Of a DNA stretch of 32,659 nucleotides, positions 1,509 through 12,997 are shown one piece after another. This stretch comes from Helicobacteraceae bacterium. GTDB taxonomy: Bacteria > Campylobacterota > Campylobacteria > Campylobacterales > Sulfurimonadaceae. The notes beneath the pieces were generated by a model. It was given only the letters and a program-made list of their open reading frames with translations, did not search any database and was not told the DNA's origin. The stretch is taken from NCBI GenBank assembly GCA_015488775.1, contig WFNF01000167.1:1-32659 (forward strand), in the 5' to 3' direction. Within the stretch, counting starts at the first letter, position 1. Every line of letters starts with the position of its first letter. A program made the translations under genes and the position numbers.

Positions 1509-1769
1509 ATGATAAAAGGTAAGAAAGTTAAACCTATCGAAGCTCCACCGTTTGATGGAACATTGACTACAGAGACTATAGGTCTATTTATCAAAGCACG
1601 AAGAACGCAACAAGGCTTAAGCACAAAAGATGCTGCTATGCTCTGTGGAGTATCTGCTAACACTCTCAATAGCATTGAAAATGGTATAGCAGGAATGAAA
1701 GTATCTTCAGTGTTGAAAATTATGACAGCCCTTGGTATAAAACTACAAATAGACCCTTGGAATAAATAA
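1509..1769 (+). CDS. hipB: HipB-like XRE-family antitoxin/repressor
   Basis: This 86-residue protein carries one helix-turn-helix of the Cro/cI (XRE) type at about residues 25-80: IGLFIKARRTQQGLS, then KDAAMLCGVSANTLNSIENG, then VLKIMTALGIKL. The N-terminal 20 residues form a short basic, proline-containing tail. In the HipBA family this protein binds the operon's operators and neutralises the HipA kinase. The stop codon shares one base with the hipA start (TAATG), so the two are translationally coupled. TAGGA lies about 8 bases before the ATG. The promoter repeats at 1438-1484, and possibly 1370-1406, are its likely targets. Confidence 0.85.
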   Translation: MIKGKKVKPIEAPPFDGTLTTETIGLFIKARRTQQGLSTKDAAMLCGVSANTLNSIENGIAGMKVSSVLKIMTALGIKLQIDPWNK

Positions 1770-3058
1770 TGAGTGATAATAGATTAAATATCACAATGTC
1801 AGGTAAAGATGTTGCATCTATATGGGTAGATAAAATAGAAGAAACTTACAAATTTGAATATACTAAAGAGTGGGTACAAAATGGCTTTGCAGTATCTCCA
1901 CATTTACAGTTAAATGAGACTTTAAAATCTGGAATAATTAGAAGGTTTTTAGAAAATCTTATTCCGGAGGGAAAGGGTCTTGAAGATATAACTCAGTTCG
2001 CTCACATCTCAAAAAATAATACTTTTGCCATTATAAAGGCTATTGGGTATGATACCTCAGGTGCTTTGATGTTTGGGGAACATACTAATCAATATGAAGA
2101 GATATTTAGATCTATTCCTGACGATGAATTGTCTAGCCGTATAACTAACATAGAAGAAAATAGTATTGTTATATGGGATAAGAAAGAGAGACTTAGTTTA
2201 GCAGGAGTTCAAGAGAAATTACCAATCATTATTAAAGATGGTCAAATTGGTTTAGGTGATGGGCTTCTCTCTTCTACTCATATAATGAAGTTTCAAACTA
2301 AAAAACATACCAATATTGTTGTGAATGAACTGTTTTGTATGAAGTTAGCAAAGAAGATTAACTTAAGTGTTGCAGAGGTAGAACTATATCGTTTTAAAGA
2401 ACACCCAGTTTTAATGGTAAAAAGATTTGATAGAGTTTATCAAGAGAATATGGTGGAACGATTACATGTAATAGATGCTTGCCAAATGTTAGACTTATCT
2501 TCTACGCACAAGTATGAGAGAAACTTTGGTTCTGGGCGAGATGTTAAAGATATAAGAGAGGGTGCTAGTTTTAGTAAACTTTTTGCAAGTGCTGATATAT
2601 GTGAAGTTCCAGCAAAGGCTAAACTAGAAATGCTTAACTGGAGTATTTTTAATCTTATTATCGGAAACTCTGATGCTCATGGAAAAAACTTCTCATTCTT
2701 TGTAGATAAAAGCGGTATAAGACCAACACCTTTTTATGACATGCTCTGTATTATTGCTCATGAGAATGTTGAACATGATCTTGCTATGGCTTATGGAGAT
2801 GAATTCAATCCTAATGAAGTTAATGCGTATCAAATGCGAGAGTTCGCAGAAGATATAGGTGTAAACTATAAACTTGTAGCTCAAACGATGAGCAAAGTCT
2901 CTAAGTCTATTATAAAAGCTTTAGAAGATGATTTTATGGATAAAAGTTTATTAAATGATGATGAAAAAGTTTTTATGAATAAATTAAAAGTGATAATAGT
3001 TAAAAGAGCTGAAGTGTTTCTAGATGTTTCTGTAAATATGAACAAAGTGACATACTAA
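1769..3058 (+). CDS. hipA: HipA-family serine/threonine kinase toxin
   Basis: At 429 residues this is close to the usual HipA length. The N-terminal subdomain is at about 5-110. The glycine-rich loop region SLAGVQEK at 143-150 contains the Ser position at which HipA proteins autophosphorylate. An ATP-binding Lys174 follows in HIMKF, the catalytic loop is GNSDAHGKN with Asp302, and the metal-binding Asp324 is in FYDM. All key kinase residues appear intact, so an active toxin is likely. Known relatives phosphorylate aminoacyl-tRNA synthetases such as GltX and cause growth arrest; this protein's target is unknown. It is followed after 25 bases by a tRNA-Leu gene on the other strand, and probably belongs to a small island. 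Confidence 0.9.
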   Translation: MSDNRLNITMSGKDVASIWVDKIEETYKFEYTKEWVQNGFAVSPHLQLNETLKSGIIRRFLENLIPEGKGLEDITQFAHISKNNTFAIIKAIGYDTSGALMFGEHTNQYEEIFRSIPDDELSSRITNIEENSIVIWDKKERLSLAGVQEKLPIIIKDGQIGLGDGLLSSTHIMKFQTKKHTNIVVNELFCMKLAKKINLSVAEVELYRFKEHPVLMVKRFDRVYQENMVERLHVIDACQMLDLSSTHKYERNFGSGRDVKDIREGASFSKLFASADICEVPAKAKLEMLNWSIFNLIIGNSDAHGKNFSFFVDKSGIRPTPFYDMLCIIAHENVEHDLAMAYGDEFNPNEVNAYQMREFAEDIGVNYKLVAQTMSKVSKSIIKALEDDFMDKSLLNDDEKVFMNKLKVIIVKRAEVFLDVSVNMNKVTY

Positions 3059-3083: not shown

Positions 3084-3167
3084 TGGTACCAGTGGCCGGA
3101 CTCGAACCGGCACGCCGTAAGGCAGTCGATTTTGAGTCGACCAAGTCTACCATTCCATCACACTGGC
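3084..3167 (-). tRNA. tRNA-Leu(CAA)
   Basis: This is a complete 84-base type II tRNA with CCA encoded. The acceptor GCCAGTG pairs with CACTGGT, the anticodon stem GTCGA/TCGAC surrounds CT-CAA-AA, the variable arm is long, and the T-arm contains GGTTCGAGTCC. The anticodon CAA reads UUG codons. Its 3' end borders the hipBA island. Confidence 0.95.
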
Positions 3168-3469: not shown

Positions 3470-5353
3470 ATGTTTCAATTAGATACTCTTTCTCTTGTTT
3501 TTGTTGTACTTATTTTATTAGGAGTGGTGCCAAATCTTTTCTACTCAAGTGGTTATCTTTCACATATAAAACGAAAAGTACATTATCAATTACATTATTA
3601 CTCTTTTATTATATCTATGCTTGGTGTAGTTGTTAGTGCAAATGCTTTGATTTTTCTTTTCTTTTGGGAGCTAATGAGTCTAACTTCTTGGCAGTTGATT
3701 TTAACAGAAGTTAAGAAAAAAAGTACAGTTAAGGCTGCACAATTTTATTTTATTATGACACATTTCGGTTTTGTATTTTTACTTCTTTTTTTCCTTATTG
3801 TAACTGATGGCGATTTAAGTATAGGATTTGTTGCAATGAAGGAAACGGCAGTAGGATTTGCATATCCTACACTACTGTTTTTCTCTTTAGTACTAGGTTT
3901 TTTAAGTAAGGCTGGAGCTGTGCCACTACATGTATGGCTTCCTTATGCTCATCCAGAAGCACCTAGCCCAGTATCTGCCCTTATGAGTGGAATAATGCTT
4001 AAAATGGCTATTTATGGATTGTTTCGTTTTCTTTTTGATGTTCTGTATCCGTGGCCTTTAGAGTGGGGAATTATGATTTTAAGTATTGGGGCACTCTCTT
4101 CACTTGTTGGTGTATTATATGCTTTGAGTGAACATGATATAAAAGCACTGTTAGCAAACCACTCTATAGAGAATATTGGTATTATACTTATAGGTTTTGG
4201 TATGGGAATGATTTTTGATACTTTAAAGCTTGATACTTTAAGTACATTCTCTTTTATTGCAGCACTATTCCATACCTTTAATCATATGAGTTTTAAATCA
4301 CTTCTTTTCATGAGTGCAGGAGCAATTCTTCATCAAACACATACAAAAAATATGGAAAAGTATGGAGGTTTAATTAAAAAGATGCCTATAAGTGCTTTTA
4401 CATTTTTGATTGCTGCTATTTCCATATCAGCACTTCCTCCAAGTAATGGATTTTTAAGTGAATGGATGATTTTTCAATCAATGCTTAGTTCATCACATAT
4501 AGATATTATGGCACTTAAATTGGCTATGCCTTTTGCTATTTTTGCTCTTGCTATGACAGGAGGATTAGCTATTGCTTGTTTTGTAAAAGCGTATGGAATT
4601 ACTTTTTTAGGTTTACATAGAAGTGCAAATGCTAAACATGCACAAGAAGTTAATTTACTTATGAAAATTGGGATGATTATGATGATGTTAGTAATATTTT
4701 CTTTAATGCTTTTTACTCCTTTTTATATTCAATGGTTTGATAAAGCTTTTTTAGAACTTGGGCATACATCAGTTTATCAACAGATATTTCCAAATGGGTT
4801 TTGGCATATGCACTCAATTGGAATAAATGGTGGCATAGTATCGCCACTTATTTTATTTTTCTCTCTTGTTGGTATAACACTCTTGATGCTTATAGCATAT
4901 AAGTTATTTGGAGTAAAAACAAGAATTTGTCATACTTGGGCATGTGGTTACAATACAGTGGCAAAAACTCAATACTCTGCAACAGGATTTGCTGGACCTA
5001 TTCGTAGATTTTTTAGCTGGCTTTATAAACCGAATATTCATTTCACAAAACAGACCATCGCTGGACATGAAACAAAATTTATAACTTCAGAGTATGAAGT
5101 TCATGTGAAACCACTTTTTGAGAGAGTTCTTTATGACTCTTTTGCAAAATTTATTCAAAATGTAAGTTATTGGGTTTATCGTTTAGCTCATTTTGAGCAG
5201 ACTCGTTACGCTGCTATGATATTTAATATTATGTTAGTTGTACTTTTTAGTTACAGAATATTTTCCCATGAGTTCTCATGGGCTACATTTGTCTTGGAAT
5301 TTTTTGTTATGATAATTTCTGTGAAAATATTAATTATTGGAGATAAAAAATGA
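3470..5353 (+). CDS. hyfB: HyfB/HycC-like proton-pumping membrane subunit
   Basis: This 627-residue polytopic protein is of the NuoL/M/N antiporter-like family. Residues of the proton path are visible: Glu67 in FFWELMS, Lys147 in LSKAGAVPLHVWLP, Lys225 in DIKALLANHS and Lys276 in MSFKSLLFMSAG. The C-terminal extension carries the TWACGYN and TGFAGPIRR blocks typical of HyfB/HycC rather than NuoL. E. coli HyfB is somewhat longer at the N-terminus, but no upstream start exists because a stop codon lies in frame near 3404. It is the first gene of the six-gene operon and overlaps hyfC by 4 bases. In group 4 hydrogenases and relatives this subunit couples electron transfer to ion movement. Confidence 0.9.
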   Translation: MFQLDTLSLVFVVLILLGVVPNLFYSSGYLSHIKRKVHYQLHYYSFIISMLGVVVSANALIFLFFWELMSLTSWQLILTEVKKKSTVKAAQFYFIMTHFGFVFLLLFFLIVTDGDLSIGFVAMKETAVGFAYPTLLFFSLVLGFLSKAGAVPLHVWLPYAHPEAPSPVSALMSGIMLKMAIYGLFRFLFDVLYPWPLEWGIMILSIGALSSLVGVLYALSEHDIKALLANHSIENIGIILIGFGMGMIFDTLKLDTLSTFSFIAALFHTFNHMSFKSLLFMSAGAILHQTHTKNMEKYGGLIKKMPISAFTFLIAAISISALPPSNGFLSEWMIFQSMLSSSHIDIMALKLAMPFAIFALAMTGGLAIACFVKAYGITFLGLHRSANAKHAQEVNLLMKIGMIMMMLVIFSLMLFTPFYIQWFDKAFLELGHTSVYQQIFPNGFWHMHSIGINGGIVSPLILFFSLVGITLLMLIAYKLFGVKTRICHTWACGYNTVAKTQYSATGFAGPIRRFFSWLYKPNIHFTKQTIAGHETKFITSEYEVHVKPLFERVLYDSFAKFIQNVSYWVYRLAHFEQTRYAAMIFNIMLVVLFSYRIFSHEFSWATFVLEFFVMIISVKILIIGDKK

Positions 5354-6270
5354 TTACCTATCTATTGAGTATCCTTCTTTTAGTTATAGTAGCACCACTT
5401 TTGCTTTCCTATATAAAAGCTATTAAAATGATAATGTTATATAAAAGACCTATTTCTATATTACAAGGATATAGAAATTTCGCAAAACTTATACAAAAAG
5501 AGACAATTATTTCAAAAGAGAGTAGTGCAATTACACTTTATGCACCTTTTTTAATACTTTCACCTCTTTTAGTTGTTATGTTTTTTTTACCACCACTTGT
5601 AAAAGGAAGTTATTATGTAAGTTTTGTCGATGCCTTCACCATAACTGGTCTTATCTCTCTTTCAACTTTTTTTCTTATGCTCTTAGGTCTTGATAGTGCA
5701 AGTTCTTTTGGTGGTATAGGAAGTTCAAGAGAAGCCTTTATATCTGCTTTGGTTGAACCTGCAATGGTATTAACTATTTTTTCAGTGTCATTGATGGCGG
5801 GTAATTTGGGTGTAGGACAAGCTGGAGTCAATTTAGCACAAAACTTTCCAAAAGAACATATGGCTAGTTTTTTATTTGCAGGGATTAGCTTTTTTATTTT
5901 ACTTTTAGCAGAAAATGGGCGTATTCCTATTGATAATCCTGAAACTCATTTAGAACTGACCATGGTTCATGAAGCGATGATACTCGACTTAACAGGAGTT
6001 TATCTTGCGATTATTGAAACGGCATCTTCTATTAAGTTTGTTATTTTTACATCACTTTTTGCATCTTTATTTATCCCTTTTGGACTTGAGTTTAGTGCAC
6101 CAATTGCAATGTTAATCTTTTTTATTAAACTCTTTTTTATTGCAACTATTGTTGCATTTTTAGAAGTAAATACAGCGAAACTGCGTCTCTTTAAAATTCC
6201 AAATTTACTTGGGATTGCCATTGTTTTTGCTTTTTTATCTTTGATCACATTTTATGTTTTAGGAGCTTAA
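5350..6270 (+). CDS. hyfC: HyfC/HycD-like membrane subunit (NuoH family)
   Basis: This 306-residue protein has about eight membrane segments and is homologous in character to NuoH and HycD, which anchor the peripheral arm to the membrane and form the entry of the proton path. Characteristic cytoplasmic-loop motifs are present: GGIGSSREAF at 121-130 and ENGRIPIDNPETH at 188-200, followed by MVHEAM with Glu208. The start overlaps the end of hyfB (ATGA). Nothing looks truncated. The charged loop residues that contact the large subunit in complex I are retained, so assembly with the downstream hyfG and hyfI products is likely although the active site of the large subunit is lost. Confidence 0.92.
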   Translation: MITYLLSILLLVIVAPLLLSYIKAIKMIMLYKRPISILQGYRNFAKLIQKETIISKESSAITLYAPFLILSPLLVVMFFLPPLVKGSYYVSFVDAFTITGLISLSTFFLMLLGLDSASSFGGIGSSREAFISALVEPAMVLTIFSVSLMAGNLGVGQAGVNLAQNFPKEHMASFLFAGISFFILLLAENGRIPIDNPETHLELTMVHEAMILDLTGVYLAIIETASSIKFVIFTSLFASLFIPFGLEFSAPIAMLIFFIKLFFIATIVAFLEVNTAKLRLFKIPNLLGIAIVFAFLSLITFYVLGA

Positions 6271-6271
6271 A

Positions 6272-6865
6272 TTGGTAGATTTTTATATTGGACTTTTTTT
6301 GGCTTCTTTGATTATTGCTCTTTTTACAACAAGACTTTATGGATTACTTTTATGGTATGCAATTAACTCTTTTATGTTAGGAATATTAGCACTAACTATC
6401 GGAGAAAGTATAGATGATCGTGCTATGATAATTACGGGAATAATAACAATTATGATTAAAGCTTTTGGTATTCCATACACATTAAAAAATCTTTCTCAAA
6501 AATTTAAATTTGTTCGTAGTATTACGCCTAAGATACAAGTACAATATGCGATTATGCTTGTACCAGCTATCTTAGTTTTTACATTTTACCTATCAGAACC
6601 AATAGTAATGATGATACATACAAATGCAAATTATGTTGCTATTAGTATCTCATCTTTATTTCTATCTCTTTTACTTATGATGGAACATAGAAATGTTGCC
6701 CCAAAGATTATAGGATTTTTAAGTATGGAAAATTCACTTTTTTTATTAGGTATTACTGCAACAAATGGAATGCCTATGTTAGTAGAACTTGGAATATTTT
6801 TTGATTTATTAATAGCTATTGTTGTTATAAATCTTTTATTTAATAAAGAGGAACTGAAAATATGA
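6272..6865 (+). CDS. hyfE: HyfE-like membrane subunit
   Basis: This 197-residue protein has six or so hydrophobic segments and matches the small HyfE subunit; its N-terminal half resembles NuoK. The start is TTG at 6272, one base after the hyfC stop, with AGGAG at 6261-6265 inside the end of hyfC giving good spacing. A conserved-looking block ITIMIKAFGIPYTLKN contains the Lys typical of HyfE. The end overlaps hyfF by 4 bases. Together with the NuoN-like hyfF, it extends the membrane arm beyond the HycCD core of formate hydrogenlyase-1, making this complex Hyf-like rather than Hyc-like. Confidence 0.88.
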   Translation: MVDFYIGLFLASLIIALFTTRLYGLLLWYAINSFMLGILALTIGESIDDRAMIITGIITIMIKAFGIPYTLKNLSQKFKFVRSITPKIQVQYAIMLVPAILVFTFYLSEPIVMMIHTNANYVAISISSLFLSLLLMMEHRNVAPKIIGFLSMENSLFLLGITATNGMPMLVELGIFFDLLIAIVVINLLFNKEELKI

Positions 6866-8277
6866 TTTTAATTTTTTTATTACTTCCTTCCTTGATAATG
6901 TTTTTTATAAGTTTTTCTAAAAGTGATAAATCAAAATATTTATTAACTTTAACATTATTTGTTGTTCTACTGCCTATTGTAAAACTTTTTTTATTACAAA
7001 AACCGTATGCTGTTTTAGGAAATTATCTTGTTGTTGATAAGCTTGACACTTATGTACTTCTTGTCTCTTCTATAGTAGGGATAGGTGTGACTTTAGCACT
7101 TTTAACATTAGATAAACATGTAAAAGTGTCTCCAAAAGCATATAGAAAATTTTATAGATTTTTTGCTATTTTTTGGATAGGATTGATTTTATCAATATTA
7201 GCAAATAATATGGGGATTTACTGGATAGGTTTAGAACTTGCTACTCTATCTACAGTTTATATGATAAAAACAAACTATACACCTGCTGCACATAAAGAAG
7301 CATGGAATTACATGATAGTTGGAGCTATTGCAGTTTCACTTATACTTTTTGGGATTATTTTAATGTATGCAAGTGCAAAACCTATATTAGGTGAAGACGC
7401 TATGTCTTTTGACTTGCTTTTAAAACATGCTAAAGAGATTCCATCACCTTATCTTTTTGAAATTGGTTTTGCTATTACAACGATTGGAATGTTTGTAAAA
7501 ATGGGGTTTTTCCCTATGAATTTGTGGTTGGCAAATATTGAAAGAGCATCATTTTATCCTGTTGCTGCACTTTTTAGTGGTATTTTAGAATCAGCTGTAC
7601 TTATTGGTTTTTTTAGATTTTCTAAAATTGCTATGGAAGTTAACCATGATCATCTTTTTATTTTTATATTTGTTTATACTCTTTTGACCATATTTATTGT
7701 ATCTTTTCTTATTTTTAGGGCTAAAGATTTTATACGTCTTTTTTCTCTCTCAGGAATTGAACATATGGCACTCATATCAATGTTTTGGGTTAGTGGAGCA
7801 CCTTTTGCAGCTTTACTTCATTTTGGTGCACATGCTTTTTTAAAGCCAGCACTATTTCTTTCTGCTGGTGTACTTGAATCAAATGGGAAGTATAAAATTG
7901 CTGGAGCACTTAAGGGATACAAAGGAAGAGGTGGAACACTTTTTGTAGTTTTAATATCTCTTTTTTTACTATCTATTATCTCTTTGCCACCAAGTCCAAT
8001 GTTTTTTAGTGAACTTTATGGATTTGGCGCAATGATAACTACAGCAAAACATGGAAATCATATTTTAGCTATGATCGGGGCGATTTTATTTTTACTTATC
8101 TTGCTTTCGATTATTTTTTATCGTTTTATTGCTATATATCAATCTATGAAATATGAGGGAGAAATAAAAGAAAGAAAAGTTTATAATATTGAACTTTTTG
8201 TATTGATTTTATTTACTTTTTCCCTTATGATACTTATGCTTCCTACAACAATAGCATATTTAAAATCAATAGTATAG
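6862..8277 (+). CDS. hyfF: HyfF-like proton-pumping membrane subunit
   Basis: This 471-residue protein is a second antiporter-like subunit. Family residues include Glu125 in WIGLELATLS, Lys213 in MFVKMGFFPMNLWL, Lys288 in FRAKDFIRLFSLSGIEH and Lys328 in AHAFLKPALFLSAG. Retention of these lysines and the glutamate argues for selection on ion translocation. It overlaps hyfE by 4 bases and is followed 8 bases later by the large-subunit gene. With hyfB, the operon encodes two antiporter-like units; E. coli Hyf has three (B, D, F), so HyfD is missing here. Confidence 0.9.
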   Translation: MILIFLLLPSLIMFFISFSKSDKSKYLLTLTLFVVLLPIVKLFLLQKPYAVLGNYLVVDKLDTYVLLVSSIVGIGVTLALLTLDKHVKVSPKAYRKFYRFFAIFWIGLILSILANNMGIYWIGLELATLSTVYMIKTNYTPAAHKEAWNYMIVGAIAVSLILFGIILMYASAKPILGEDAMSFDLLLKHAKEIPSPYLFEIGFAITTIGMFVKMGFFPMNLWLANIERASFYPVAALFSGILESAVLIGFFRFSKIAMEVNHDHLFIFIFVYTLLTIFIVSFLIFRAKDFIRLFSLSGIEHMALISMFWVSGAPFAALLHFGAHAFLKPALFLSAGVLESNGKYKIAGALKGYKGRGGTLFVVLISLFLLSIISLPPSPMFFSELYGFGAMITTAKHGNHILAMIGAILFLLILLSIIFYRFIAIYQSMKYEGEIKERKVYNIELFVLILFTFSLMILMLPTTIAYLKSIV

Positions 8278-8285
8278 GAACAAAA

Positions 8286-9653
8286 ATGAGATTAATAGCA
8301 CGCTATGCAAAAGAGCTAAAAAATGATTTTGAAGTGATTACTATCTATGATAAAATTATTCAAAGAGAAAAAGTACCTAAAGATACTCCTTCTATGCAAA
8401 CTTTAGCAAAGATTCATCCATGTGCAGTTTGGTTTGAGCGAAAGATATATGATGATTTTGGTATAAATTTTAGTGATGCATATGATAAACGCCCTTTAGT
8501 ACATCAGGAAAGATTCGCAAAAAATATTCATCCAATGCAAAAATCATTTACTAACAAGAGTATTCAAGAGGTGGATTACCTTCCTTATAAGTACGAAGAA
8601 ATTAGTGGAGATGGAGTTTTCCAAGTTGCTGTTGGACCTATTCATGCAGGAATTATTGAACCAGGACATTTTCAATTTTCTCAAGCAGGAGAAGAGATGT
8701 TGCACCTTGAAGTAAGACATTTTTATAAGCACCGTGGGATTGAAAAGATGTTAGAGGGTAAATCCTTGTTTGATGTAAAAGCAATAATTGAACGAATTAG
8801 TGGGATTGAATCTATTGCATACCAAATATGTTTACGAGACATTATGTTACAAGCTTCAAAACAAGAATTGCCAAAAACTTTAAAAAAAAGACATGCACTC
8901 TTTTTAGAACTTGAACGAACAATTCATCATCTAAACAACTTAGGATTTATTCCAAATGATGCTGGTTTTGGTGCAGCAATGAGTTTTGCTTCTAAACTTT
9001 CTGAAGATGCCAGACGAAAATTAAAAGAGATTAGTGGACATAGATTTGGTTTTGGTGCTGTAGATTTTTCTATAGAATCTATAGATAAAACCTCTTTTTT
9101 GGAGTGGCTTGATACACTTCAAAAAGATATAGATTTTTTCGAGGATTGGATTATGGATATTCCTTCACTATGGGATAGATTTGATACAACAGGGAAACTT
9201 ACTTTAAAAAAAGCAATAAAATATGACACTATTGGTGTAGTAGCTCGTGCTTCTGGAGTCTCAGTAGATAGAAGAATAGATAAATTTTATCTTGAACATG
9301 GTTTTGAAATTGCAAACGAGAAAAGTGGTGATGTTGCTGCTAGATTTAAAATTCGGCTTCATGAAGTAAAAAATTCTATTTTAATGATGCGTAATTTTTT
9401 AGATGAGAATAGTGATGATTTTACACTAAACATTTTCCACGATGGAGAGTTTTTTAGTTTTTGTGAAAGTTCTATTGGAGAGTTGCTAGTTACTATTGAG
9501 TTAAAAGATGGTGTAATTGAACGTTTCTTTGTTAGAGACCCTAGTTTTATTAATTGGCAAGCACTACATTTGATGATGCGAAGTGATATAATCGCTGATT
9601 TTCCACTAATAAATAAAAGTTGTGATTTAAGTTATGCAGGGAGTGATTTATGA
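8286..9653 (+). CDS. hyfG: HyfG/HycE-like large subunit lacking Ni ligands (Ehr type)
   Basis: This 455-residue protein is a NuoC-NuoD type fusion. Residues 1-80 are a shortened NuoC-like part (VWFERKIYDDFGI). Residues 100-455 are the NiFe-large-subunit/NuoD part, with AVGPIHAGIIEPGHF and HRGIEKMLEG well kept. The two CxxC motifs that hold nickel and iron in every [NiFe] hydrogenase are gone. The first, normally ERICGIC, reads ERISGIE (169-175); the second, normally DPCxxC, reads DPSFIN (418-423). The protein therefore cannot bind a NiFe centre. The fold is otherwise intact and the gene undamaged, as in described energy-converting hydrogenase-related (Ehr) complexes and in NuoD itself. AGGAA precedes the ATG. 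It overlaps hyfI by 4 bases. Confidence 0.93.
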   Translation: MRLIARYAKELKNDFEVITIYDKIIQREKVPKDTPSMQTLAKIHPCAVWFERKIYDDFGINFSDAYDKRPLVHQERFAKNIHPMQKSFTNKSIQEVDYLPYKYEEISGDGVFQVAVGPIHAGIIEPGHFQFSQAGEEMLHLEVRHFYKHRGIEKMLEGKSLFDVKAIIERISGIESIAYQICLRDIMLQASKQELPKTLKKRHALFLELERTIHHLNNLGFIPNDAGFGAAMSFASKLSEDARRKLKEISGHRFGFGAVDFSIESIDKTSFLEWLDTLQKDIDFFEDWIMDIPSLWDRFDTTGKLTLKKAIKYDTIGVVARASGVSVDRRIDKFYLEHGFEIANEKSGDVAARFKIRLHEVKNSILMMRNFLDENSDDFTLNIFHDGEFFSFCESSIGELLVTIELKDGVIERFFVRDPSFINWQALHLMMRSDIIADFPLINKSCDLSYAGSDL

Positions 9654-10156
9654 TTAGGTTCTGGAGTAGAAGACTTTATGAAAGCAATATTACAGAAGAT
9701 ACAGATTTAGAAAAAAGATTATATGTAATTAAAAAAAATATAAAAGATAAAGTAAAAAAAAAGTTTGCAGGTAGTTTAGCAATTAGAATGGTTGATAGTG
9801 GAAGTTGTAATGCTTGTGAAGCTGAATGTAATGCTCTTTCAAATTCATACTATGATTTGGAACGCTTAGGTGTCTATTTTGTGGCAAGTCCTCGTCATGC
9901 TGATGTTATGCTTTTGAGTGGAGTTATGACTTTTAATATGACACCTTATGTAAAGAATGCTTATGAACAAATACCAGCACCAAAATGGGTGGTTAGCCTT
10001 GGCGATTGTCCTGTGATGCAAGCTCCATTTGAGTTAACACATGCAATTAACGCTCCAGTTGATAAGTATTTTGAAGTAACACATCATATTGCAGGTTGTC
10101 CACCAACACCTTTAGAAATAATGGAAGGCTTATTAGAATTTTTACAAAAAATCTAA
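9650..10156 (+). CDS. hyfI: HyfI-like small subunit with one FeS cluster (NuoB family)
   Basis: At 168 residues this is a short cytoplasmic small subunit like HycG and NuoB. Four cluster cysteines are present: Cys53 and Cys56 in GSCNAC, Cys120 in LGDCP and Cys150 in AGCPP. The proximal [4Fe-4S] cluster (equivalent to N2 of complex I) should therefore form. The CxxC spacing is hydrogenase-like rather than the adjacent Cys pair of NuoB. It is the last gene of the operon. No gene for the ferredoxin-like subunits HyfA or HyfH follows, so the electron source for this cluster is not encoded here. The first 40 residues are basic and may bind the membrane arm. Confidence 0.9.
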   Translation: MIRFWSRRLYESNITEDTDLEKRLYVIKKNIKDKVKKKFAGSLAIRMVDSGSCNACEAECNALSNSYYDLERLGVYFVASPRHADVMLLSGVMTFNMTPYVKNAYEQIPAPKWVVSLGDCPVMQAPFELTHAINAPVDKYFEVTHHIAGCPPTPLEIMEGLLEFLQKI

Positions 10157-10303: not shown

Positions 10304-12997
10304 GTGAGAGTTACTCAAAGTATGTATTATAAAAACATTTCTGCAGAAGGTAATGTCATAAATAAACAACTTTTTGATGTAAACAAACAGATTGCATCTG
10401 GTCAAAAGATTAAATATGCTTATGAAAACACTACTACATTTGTTGATACTTTAAGATTAGATGATGAGATAACAACTTTAAATCAAGTTAAATCTAGTAC
10501 ATCAAATGGATATAAGTTTTCCACTCAAACCGATACAACTTTTAATGATATCTCTAAAACTTTAGACACTGTAAAAGTAAAGTTATTAAATGCATCTAAC
10601 GGAACACACTCTGATACAAGTATAAGTGCTATTGCAGAAGAGTTAAAAGGGATTAAAAAACACCTTTTTGCTTTATCAAACACACAAATAAATGGAAAGT
10701 ACCTTTTTTCAGGAACGGCAACAAATATTAAGCCTATAAGTGAAGATGGTGTGTATCATGGAAATGATGGGGATTTAAAATCATTTTTTGGAAATGGTAT
10801 TCAACAAAAATACAATATTAGTGGTAAAGATGTTTTTTTAGGATCTGAAAACTTAAAAAGAAATATAACTACAAATGTACCTATGTTTAATCAATCAAAA
10901 TTACATCCAGATATTATGGTAGATGAAACAATTGACCCTGTAAACAGTGTAGAAGAGTATCTTAAAAATACTGATACTATTAGAGATATGCTTGGTGATA
11001 ATAATACTAAAATTGATACAGTAAATGAAAAAAATATATTTTATATTCGTGGTGTTAAACATGATGGAATAGCTTTTAAAGAGACTATATCTATGAAAGA
11101 CACTGATTCTGTAGAATCTTTACTTGTAAAAATTGGTGAAGCTTATGGTAATGCAGGAAATACATCTGTTGTAAATGTAAGTTTAAGTAAGAATGGTCAA
11201 ATTGAGATAGAAGATAAACTTTCTGGTTCTTCAAAAATTGATTTCAATATGATAGCATCAACTGCTCAATCTTACTCACCACCTTTACTTGCTACAAGTG
11301 TTGCACCAAACTCGAACCAGATAACAGTTCCAAGTGTTGGAACTTTAAATGTAGATGACACGCTACTTATTGATGGTTCTCAATACAGTGTTACAGCAGT
11401 TTCTGGTGGAGCTGCACCTGAAACTATAACTTTAAACAATACTGTCCCAGGTAGCATCTCTAATATAGAAGTTTTCAAATCAACAGGTACAGATTTAGAG
11501 AACGATATAGCTTCAAACTATAGTTTTAATAAATTTGGGGTAAATGTAGTTGAATTTAATAAAAGTGAATTTGTTGAGTACCAATCTAGTATAACAACTG
11601 AGCGTAGCATATTTGATAAAACAGATTATGTACTTGATGCTGATTTATTTACTACTGAGGGTAAACCCAGTGATGGATCTACATTAGCTACACATGTGTT
11701 AAAACCTGAAGTTAGAAGCATAGCCTTAAGTGGAACTAGAACTGATGGTAGTGCAATGCCTGTAGGCTCAACTTTAGATATAACAAACACAACTACTCTA
11801 AATGATATAGTAACCTTTATAGATAACTCTTATGATTTAACAAATGAGATAAATGTATCAATTCAAAACTCTAAAATTGTTATAAATTCAGCAAATGAAA
11901 GTGTACCTATAAATATTGTATTAGAGTCTTTTGACGCTGTATCTGGTGGAGGAAATAGAGTCGATGGTTTGCCTTCAAATGCTGGTAAATCTTATGATGA
12001 GGGCAATTTTATTGTAAAAGATAATAAGGTTCTCTCAAACCAGTCACAAATAGTTTCATCTACAAACGATTTTGCTACAAACTCTACTAAACTAGTTGAT
12101 GTTAGTGGTGCTTCAAATCTTGATGCTGAAACTTTAGAGTTTAATGGAAATGACATAAATGGAAATCCATTTAGTGTAAATATAAACTTAGCAAACGCTG
12201 GTAGTAGTTTTGATTATACAGACAGTGCAGGGGTGACAACAAATTTTCCTATATTTGATGCAGTGTTTCAAGACAATGATAATGATGGTATCTTTACTCC
12301 AGGTGTAGATGCTGGAGTTCAAACACCAGCGAATGAAGTGTCTTATAAACAACTTTTTGATGTTATGAACATGGTATCAACTGCTCAACTTCCTCAAAAT
12401 ACCAATGGAGTTGCTGGTATTCAATATGATGAATATTATGATGCTGTAAAAGTTTCAAACCTATCTGGAACTACAGAGTTTACCCAAGATTCTAAAATAG
12501 AGTTTTCAGATAAAACAACAACAAACACAAAGGCTCAATTTAAACTTAGTGACGCAAAAGCAAGTGATTTTACACAAGGTGCATCTATTTTAAGTTTTCA
12601 TAATAATTCAGCTTTAACCATTAAAGATTCTAAAATGGATTTTTTTAACACTATAGATGAAGTTATAAACTCTGTAGAGATAGCAAGATTAAGACCAGAT
12701 GGTGATGATAAAGATCCAAGAACTTTGGGTATGCAAAATGCAATAACCTTACTTGACTCATTGATGGAACATGTTCAAAGAAACCAAACACAAGCAGGGG
12801 TTCAATCTCAAACTCTTGATGCTGAGTCACAAAGAAGTGATCTTCTGATTTTAAGTACAAAAACACTAAGATCTAGCGTAATAGATGTAGATATTGCAGA
12901 AGCTGCTATGAATCTTCAACAATTGACATTAAATTACCAAGCTATGCTCTCTAGTGTTGGTAAAGTTTCGCAACTTTCCTTAGTAAACTATTTATAA
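10304..12997 (+). CDS. flgL: Flagellar hook-associated protein 3, long form
   Basis: FlgL joins the hook to the flagellin filament. Residues 1-145 match the flagellin N-terminal coiled-coil domain (MRVTQSMYYKNI, then SGQKIKYAYEN). About residues 810-897 match the flagellin C-terminal domain, ending in IDVDIAEAAMNLQQLTLNYQ. The protein is 897 residues against roughly 317 in E. coli; the extra length is a central, surface-facing region. It is Asn/Ser/Thr-rich, with beta-rich blocks (for example ITVPSVGTLNVDDTLLIDGS) and a DNDNDG motif at 657-662 that resembles a calcium-binding loop. The start is GTG with a near-perfect AAGGAGGTG at 10291-10299. A sigma-54 promoter lies upstream and a terminator just downstream, so it is transcribed alone. 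Confidence 0.92.
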   Translation: MRVTQSMYYKNISAEGNVINKQLFDVNKQIASGQKIKYAYENTTTFVDTLRLDDEITTLNQVKSSTSNGYKFSTQTDTTFNDISKTLDTVKVKLLNASNGTHSDTSISAIAEELKGIKKHLFALSNTQINGKYLFSGTATNIKPISEDGVYHGNDGDLKSFFGNGIQQKYNISGKDVFLGSENLKRNITTNVPMFNQSKLHPDIMVDETIDPVNSVEEYLKNTDTIRDMLGDNNTKIDTVNEKNIFYIRGVKHDGIAFKETISMKDTDSVESLLVKIGEAYGNAGNTSVVNVSLSKNGQIEIEDKLSGSSKIDFNMIASTAQSYSPPLLATSVAPNSNQITVPSVGTLNVDDTLLIDGSQYSVTAVSGGAAPETITLNNTVPGSISNIEVFKSTGTDLENDIASNYSFNKFGVNVVEFNKSEFVEYQSSITTERSIFDKTDYVLDADLFTTEGKPSDGSTLATHVLKPEVRSIALSGTRTDGSAMPVGSTLDITNTTTLNDIVTFIDNSYDLTNEINVSIQNSKIVINSANESVPINIVLESFDAVSGGGNRVDGLPSNAGKSYDEGNFIVKDNKVLSNQSQIVSSTNDFATNSTKLVDVSGASNLDAETLEFNGNDINGNPFSVNINLANAGSSFDYTDSAGVTTNFPIFDAVFQDNDNDGIFTPGVDAGVQTPANEVSYKQLFDVMNMVSTAQLPQNTNGVAGIQYDEYYDAVKVSNLSGTTEFTQDSKIEFSDKTTTNTKAQFKLSDAKASDFTQGASILSFHNNSALTIKDSKMDFFNTIDEVINSVEIARLRPDGDDKDPRTLGMQNAITLLDSLMEHVQRNQTQAGVQSQTLDAESQRSDLLILSTKTLRSSVIDVDIAEAAMNLQQLTLNYQAMLSSVGKVSQLSLVNYL

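Follow-up and report, generated by a model that had tools for sequence, protein, structure and literature searches.

An Ehr operon with one cluster motif in a Sulfurimonadaceae genome, and graded loss of cofactor sites among its relatives

What does a complex I-type membrane machine do when it is encoded with a single iron-sulfur cluster motif and no electron-input subunit? This question is raised by six genes on a stretch of 32,659 nucleotides (here called the window) of contig WFNF01000167.1 from a Helicobacteraceae bacterium of the family Sulfurimonadaceae (assembly GCA_015488775.1). The genes almost certainly encode an energy-converting hydrogenase-related (Ehr; also Ech hydrogenase-related) complex, of the subtype that lacks both a nickel-iron (NiFe) site and a ferredoxin domain and has a single [4Fe-4S] motif. 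For its function, the chances are about even that it is an ion-translocating machine whose cytoplasmic subunits serve as a coupling or gating domain.

Identity of the operon

The operon consists of six open reading frames (ORFs), neighbors among which either overlap or lie at most about 8 bases apart (Table 1). Family scans (Pfam, NCBIfam) identified Proton_antipo_M in EhrA (8e-54) and EhrD (1e-21), NADHdh in EhrB (5e-29), PRK11492 in EhrC (6e-14), Complex1_30kDa (3e-12) and Complex1_49kDa (9e-26) in EhrL, and Oxidored_q6 in EhrS (7e-22). ORFs and scans thus agree with a first-pass annotation of the sequence, which had listed two antiporter-like subunits, NuoH-like and HyfE-like membrane subunits, and a NuoCD/NuoB-like pair at 3470-10156; the subunit folds are settled by homology. 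As also noted there, the operon contains no HyfA- or HyfH-like ferredoxin subunit, no HyfD and no maturation gene, and thus no linked electron-input subunit; NuoI and the NADH module NuoEFG were likewise not found in the cluster.

Table 1. Positions of the ehr genes, predicted cofactor sites and adjoining features in the window, and of SulP-type genes at other loci
Feature	Position	Strand	Description
ehrA	3470..5353	+	HyfB/NuoL-type antiporter-like subunit, 627 amino acids (aa)
ehrB	5350..6270	+	NuoH/HyfC-like membrane subunit
ehrC	6272..6865	+	HyfE-like membrane subunit, 197 aa, TTG start
ehrD	6862..8277	+	HyfF/NuoN-like antiporter-like subunit, 471 aa
ehrL	8286..9653	+	Fused NuoC/NuoD-like large subunit, 455 aa
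ehrS	9650..10156	+	NuoB/HyfI-like small subunit, 168 aa, without ferredoxin domain
EhrL Ser172-Glu175	8799..8810	+	First CxxC site of NiFe hydrogenases (RVCGIC) reads RISGIE
EhrL Ser449-Gly452	9630..9641	+	Second CxxC site of hydrogenases (DPCYSC) reads DLSYAG
EhrS Cys53 + Cys56 (CNAC)	9806..9817	+	First predicted cluster ligand pair
EhrS Cys120 (GDC)	10007..10009	+	Third predicted cluster ligand
EhrS Cys150 (GCPP)	10097..10099	+	Fourth predicted cluster ligand
tRNA-Leu(CAA)	3084..3167	-	Nearest gene upstream; bounds the operon, outside it
Long flagellar-type gene	10304-12997		Downstream of the operon; assigned by eye
SulP-type gene beside Ehr	L048:51-1628, L098:1833-3497, L104:1617-3272, L088:10759-12444, L090, L123		At loci of relatives

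In the large subunit EhrL, the NiFe-binding cysteines of hydrogenases are replaced at 4/4 positions (Ser172, Glu175, Ser449 and Gly452; SESG for CCCC), and the positions of the quinone-site His and Tyr of complex I (Nqo4 H38 and Y87) are occupied by Ile124 and Gly173. EhrL shares the motif GPIHAGIIEPGHF with other Ehr proteins. A gene for the NiFe maturation protein HypD was found nowhere in the genome (95% complete). In a quick EhrL tree, from which a few unreliable long-branch rows were disregarded (the short group-4 reference rows L016 and L021, on a branch of length 10, as an alignment artefact), the window sequence fell into a Campylobacterota clade (support 100) inside an Ehr group. This group stood apart from Escherichia coli HyfG/HycE and from the genome's own NuoD proteins (99 by the Shimodaira-Hasegawa-like approximate likelihood ratio test, SH-aLRT). 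The genome carries Nuo clusters elsewhere (contigs C130, C86 and C38).

Gene order, subunit classes, the grouping of EhrL and the lost NiFe cysteines all match Ehr, and it is on these grounds that the operon is assigned to this family and not, as previously annotated, to a reduced Hyf. Nor is the architecture new, since ehrABCDLS has been described before (PMC4704411, PMC3569383, PMC7894505). Reported operons include Mhun_1817-1822 of Methanospirillum hungatei, for which the gene order is written out (PMC4704411), Desru_3260-3265 of Desulfotomaculum ruminis (PMC3569383) and GSU0739-0745 of Geobacter sulfurreducens, where one gene is named EhrA-1, subunits were detected by proteomics and the subunit names used here are given (PMC7894505). 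Ehr has also been described in Nitrospira (PMC10284858), Sulfobacillus (PMC4378227), Methylacidiphilum (PMC6688271) and ammonia-oxidizing archaea (PMC10432482). The six subunit classes of these described systems are those of the window, as is the order where it is given, and the NiFe cysteines are absent in most Ehr (PMC3569383), as they are here. EhrL of D. ruminis, in contrast, is reported to have them, and Firmicutes relatives possess a ferredoxin domain that the window EhrS lacks. Nitrospira moscoviensis (locus L081) and Methanoregula (L076) share the EhrL motif family of the window.

The window's Campylobacterota clade is nevertheless distinct. Its EhrL shares no more than about 38% identity with other Ehr, and ~75 aa found at the N terminus of HyfB are missing from its EhrA. 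A truncated, frameshifted or miscalled EhrA can be ruled out: because all close relatives start at this same position, ~75 residues downstream of the HyfB start, the short N terminus is a feature of the clade. Two extra cysteines, EhrL Cys446 (9621-9623) and EhrS Cys60 (9827-9829), are kept in most of the clade and are not conserved in the other Ehr sequences compared; they could form a disulfide or provide an extra ligand.

The membrane subunits retain residues of the types that form the proton paths and the E-channel of complex I. EhrA has Glu69 (FFWELMS), the Lys of the transmembrane helix 7 type (SKAGAVPLH), the His and Lys of HTFNHMSFK, a Glu at the position typical of transmembrane helix 12 and a C-terminal extension of the lateral-helix type. 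EhrB keeps acidic E-channel-type residues (VEPAM, AENGRIPIDNPETHLE) and shares the Ehr-specific insert LTMVHEAMI with EhrB of Methanoregula and Moranbacteria.

Compared with better-known systems, the window has HyfB-, C-, E-, F-, G- and I-type subunits in common with E. coli hydrogenase 4 (Hyf) and formate hydrogenlyase (Hyc, 7z0s) but lacks HyfA, HyfD, HyfH, the NiFe ligands, a maturation gene in the operon and HypD in the genome. Its NuoB-like subunit is nearest by sequence to MbhJ (1.6e-27), and by homology it shares the complex I-type pump fold of membrane-bound hydrogenase Mbh (6cfw) and sulfane reductase Mbs (6u8y); it has neither their ferredoxin-type subunit nor their Mrp-type small subunits, and the NiFe ligands are lost. 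With complex I it has NuoB-, C-, D-, H-, L- and N-like subunits in common, whereas NuoE, F, G and I and the quinone-site His/Tyr are missing.

Relatives whose EhrL is 55 to 73% identical occurred in 9/150 other genomes of the host's family, and since they keep the gene order, the operon is not a chance arrangement. EhrL of the window type was present in 32/397 Campylobacterota genomes, representing 18/69 genera. A contig scan returned at least 581 relatives, the best 80 of which include Nitrospira, Methanoregula, Methanosarcina, Selenomonas, Myxococcales, Proteobacteria, Thaumarchaeota, Acidobacteria and Patescibacteria. As loci were picked by the patterns HAGIIEPG and HF[QH]FSQ[AD]G, counts describe the sample and not the whole family. 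Two variants of the layout were seen: a second ehrA in tandem upstream of ehrA (L036, L037, L038, L041 and L048), which recalls the Geobacter name EhrA-1, and seven ORFs between ehrL and ehrS in the single-contig genome G205 (L160).

Electron input and output

The first-pass annotation had proposed a search of the genome for unattached HyfA/HyfH/HycB-like genes. E. coli HyfH and HyfA were searched in ten carriers and ten non-carriers of the ehr operon. HyfH matched NuoI and a ferredoxin protein of ~370 aa, and HyfA a ferredoxin protein of ~220 aa. In the window's own genome these were three NuoI-type proteins on contigs C123, C86 and C38, assigned to NuoI from their place or length, and, on contig C39, ferredoxin proteins (~370 and 222 aa). 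No HyfA/HyfH-like gene tracked the operon, as the same classes of match occurred equally in the ten carriers and the ten non-carriers, which rules out a free gene of this kind as the Ehr partner. A constant extra gene beside the operon, another partner that had been considered, was likewise rejected, with none among ~35 Campylobacterota loci; nor was any oxidoreductase gene a constant neighbor at the Campylobacterota loci. The extras most closely tied to the operon were a DUF167 gene (7 Campylobacterota loci) and a ClC channel gene (5 loci).

With no input gene tracking the operon and both the NiFe ligands and the quinone His/Tyr gone, the sequence of the window Ehr shows no donor subunit of a known kind, and no acceptor site of a known kind either, whether NiFe or canonical quinone. 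A further Nuo cluster of the same genome (L047, contig C38) lacks nuoE, F and G and adjoins a pyridine nucleotide-disulfide oxidoreductase gene; its NuoCD is also without the usual quinone His/Tyr (GPTHPA-SGPIRL, ERLCF).

Graded loss of cofactor sites

The four cysteines of EhrS expected to hold the remaining cluster (Cys53, Cys56, Cys120 and Cys150) are present as previously annotated and read CCCC in 21/21 Campylobacterota sequences compared. As they are invariant in the window's clade, the predicted cluster is under selection there. To place this state within the family, 81 loci were scored for three features, namely the ligands of the NiFe site, those of the small subunit, and a ferredoxin motif (CxxCxxC) located upstream in EhrS; in the scored rows L088 and L097, one cysteine was kept or the site was read from a shortened ORF. 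All three features, with four ligands at each site, were present at 11 loci. A single locus (Desulfosporosinus) had two NiFe ligands, and eight had none, with the small-subunit ligands and ferredoxin motif retained. The window's state, in which the four small-subunit cysteines are the only feature left, was the commonest in the sample (47 loci), and 10 loci had no ligands of either kind and no ferredoxin motif. The remaining four rows were of other types, one of them a partial small subunit. By these motifs, Ehr proteins form a loss series that starts with NiFe and the ferredoxin domain both in place, continues with loss of NiFe and then of the ferredoxin domain, and ends with loss of the last cluster.

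All four EhrS cysteines are replaced, by Asp-Thr/Ala-Asp/Glu-Asn, at loci L076, L078, L066, L071 and L061 and in a survey of the class of genome G496 (L170-L197); the carriers are Methanomicrobia, an Altiarchaeales and a Dehalococcoidales metagenome-assembled genome (MAG). In Methanomicrobia, the four sites read Asp-Thr/Ala-Asp/Glu-Asn in 30/30 readable sequences (32 carriers among 149 genomes). Patescibacteria have Thr/Ser-Glu-Gly-Asp/Asn or other combinations such as DADD and SCDD, with CCCC in one genome. The ehrABCDLS operon of cluster-free loci is complete where the contig allows, and where these genomes yielded another small subunit (Methanoregula, Methanosarcina, Altiarchaeales and Dehalococcoidales MAGs), it reads CCCC, or CC in one cut-off match. 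The predicted cluster-free state of EhrS is not an isolated error. On the tree, five changes of the cluster label are needed, four of them forced by supported branches, and as the outgroups have CCCC, these changes are most simply losses. Cofactor-free Methanoregula still has proton-path-type residues in EhrA, and the pocket letters of its EhrL (S/E/S/G) are identical to those of the window.

Ehr proteins of the Candidate Phyla Radiation (CPR) have been reported to lack metal-cofactor-binding cysteines, although the accessible part of that account does not single out the small subunit (PMC7304191). A cluster-free small subunit was not found described in the accessible Ehr literature, which does not extend to the founding papers. 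Thus, the Ehr architecture is already known, and the cofactor-free relatives are provisionally new.

Possible function

The preferred reading, to which we give roughly an even chance, is that EhrA, B, C and D would form a complex I-type membrane machine translocating protons (or sodium), while the EhrL/EhrS pair may have lost net catalysis and become a domain that couples or gates ion movement in antiport or in pH or ion homeostasis. The remaining EhrS cluster would be a redox sensor or structural element and not a station on a through-going electron chain. Assembly of the complex, the choice of ion and the driving force, taken here to be an ion gradient and not a redox reaction, are all inferred. 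The main argument for this reading comes from relatives that share the genes and the EhrL pocket letters (S/E/S/G, Methanoregula) and lack the cluster ligands. As these relatives keep the operon without cluster cysteines, part of the Ehr family seems able to do without electron transfer, which favors a redox-independent or redox-gated ion role over a ferredoxin-driven pump, albeit without proof. Consequently, a soluble donor need not reach the cluster, as the first-pass annotation had held it must, given also that no acceptor site is left; its alternative of a redox-gated ion channel gains weight. The main argument against the ion-machine reading is that no sequence of the window's clade departs from the four cluster cysteines, so the predicted cluster does something there, and conclusions drawn from cluster-free relatives may not apply to the window. 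In addition, Geobacter Ehr increases in abundance on formate, a possible sign of a redox role (PMC7894505).

The invariant cysteines are also an argument for a redox pump, in which an unlinked ferredoxin or flavodoxin would feed the EhrS cluster directly, the cavity that once held NiFe in EhrL would take up an acceptor, and ion pumping would follow as in Mbh and Mbs. The closest solved relatives of EhrS and EhrL are MbhJ and formate hydrogenlyase HycE (8.5e-54), and Campylobacterota with a reductive tricarboxylic acid cycle possess ferredoxin-dependent enzymes. However, there is no NiFe site or canonical quinone His/Tyr and hence no known acceptor, no dedicated input subunit tracks the operon, and relatives of the same architecture lack cluster ligands, leaving the redox pump a serious but distinctly less probable explanation. 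We consider it rather unlikely that Ehr is a docking module for a separately encoded oxidoreductase, such as a formate dehydrogenase (FDH-Ehr), that would supply clusters and flavin. Such an arrangement has been proposed for Riflemargulisbacteria and Saganbacteria (PMC6349859), the formate response in Geobacter is in keeping with it, and the Methanospirillum ehr genes are listed close to the fdh genes Mhun_1813-1814 (PMC4704411); in Campylobacterota, however, no oxidoreductase gene is constant beside the operon. The loss of catalytic residues might also suggest a degenerate, non-functional leftover of a hydrogenase, but this is highly improbable for six intact ORFs whose products are all 73 to 87% identical to those of a genome of another genus (L036), with many positions invariant among the relatives compared and with the reported spread across Campylobacterota genera. 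The best named families of EhrA, EhrC and EhrD are hydrogenase 4 subunits, but a genuine hydrogenase 4 minus a few subunits can be practically dismissed given the four replaced NiFe ligands, the lack of a genomic HypD and an EhrL that does not group with HyfG/HycE.

Genomic surroundings

Neighbors of Ehr in relatives are associations in a modest sample, taken without a significance test. Cofactor-free Ehr of the Moranbacteria type immediately follows the genes for the beta and epsilon subunits of ATP synthase, on one strand (L065, L075, L083 and L198-L201); the order atpD-atpC-ehrS-ehrA is unbroken in four TEGN/TEGD-type Patescibacteria genomes, and atpG precedes it in L065 and L075. In Campylobacterota, Gammaproteobacteria and Agromyces, Ehr has a SulP-type anion transporter gene beside it. 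A ClC chloride channel/exchanger gene adjoins ehrS in the Campylobacterota loci L050, L058, L154, L155 and L167, on the opposite strand in the loci read. A DUF167/YggU gene stands between ehrD and ehrL in several Campylobacterota (L037:12246-12629, L038:12998-13372 and L048:8621-9004), and a relative of it adjoins Ehr in a methanotrophic symbiont (L098). A role in pH homeostasis has been suggested for Methylacidiphilum Ehr (PMC6688271). In the window, a small helix-turn-helix gene (HipB-like, by eye) and a HipA-family gene at 1509-3058, upstream of the operon, are likely a toxin-antitoxin pair. A promoter scan gave no excess over shuffled sequences.

Implications

The way in which complex I couples ion pumping to redox chemistry is still under debate. 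Ehr offers a natural dissection series for this question, in which the whole pump and the NuoB/NuoCD-like interface are kept while NiFe, the ferredoxin domain and the last cluster are lost. We tentatively propose, at somewhat less than even likelihood, that Ehr complexes are complex I-type ion machines needing no electron transfer, with the window as an intermediate in cofactor loss and the cofactor-free relatives (Methanomicrobia, Altiarchaeales, Dehalococcoidales and Patescibacteria) as gradient-driven antiporters or gated channels. If cofactor-free members do move ions, the interface and the pump would work without electrons, and the coupling steps would become separately testable. If true, this would provide a function for a very widespread complex, found here in both bacteria and archaea.

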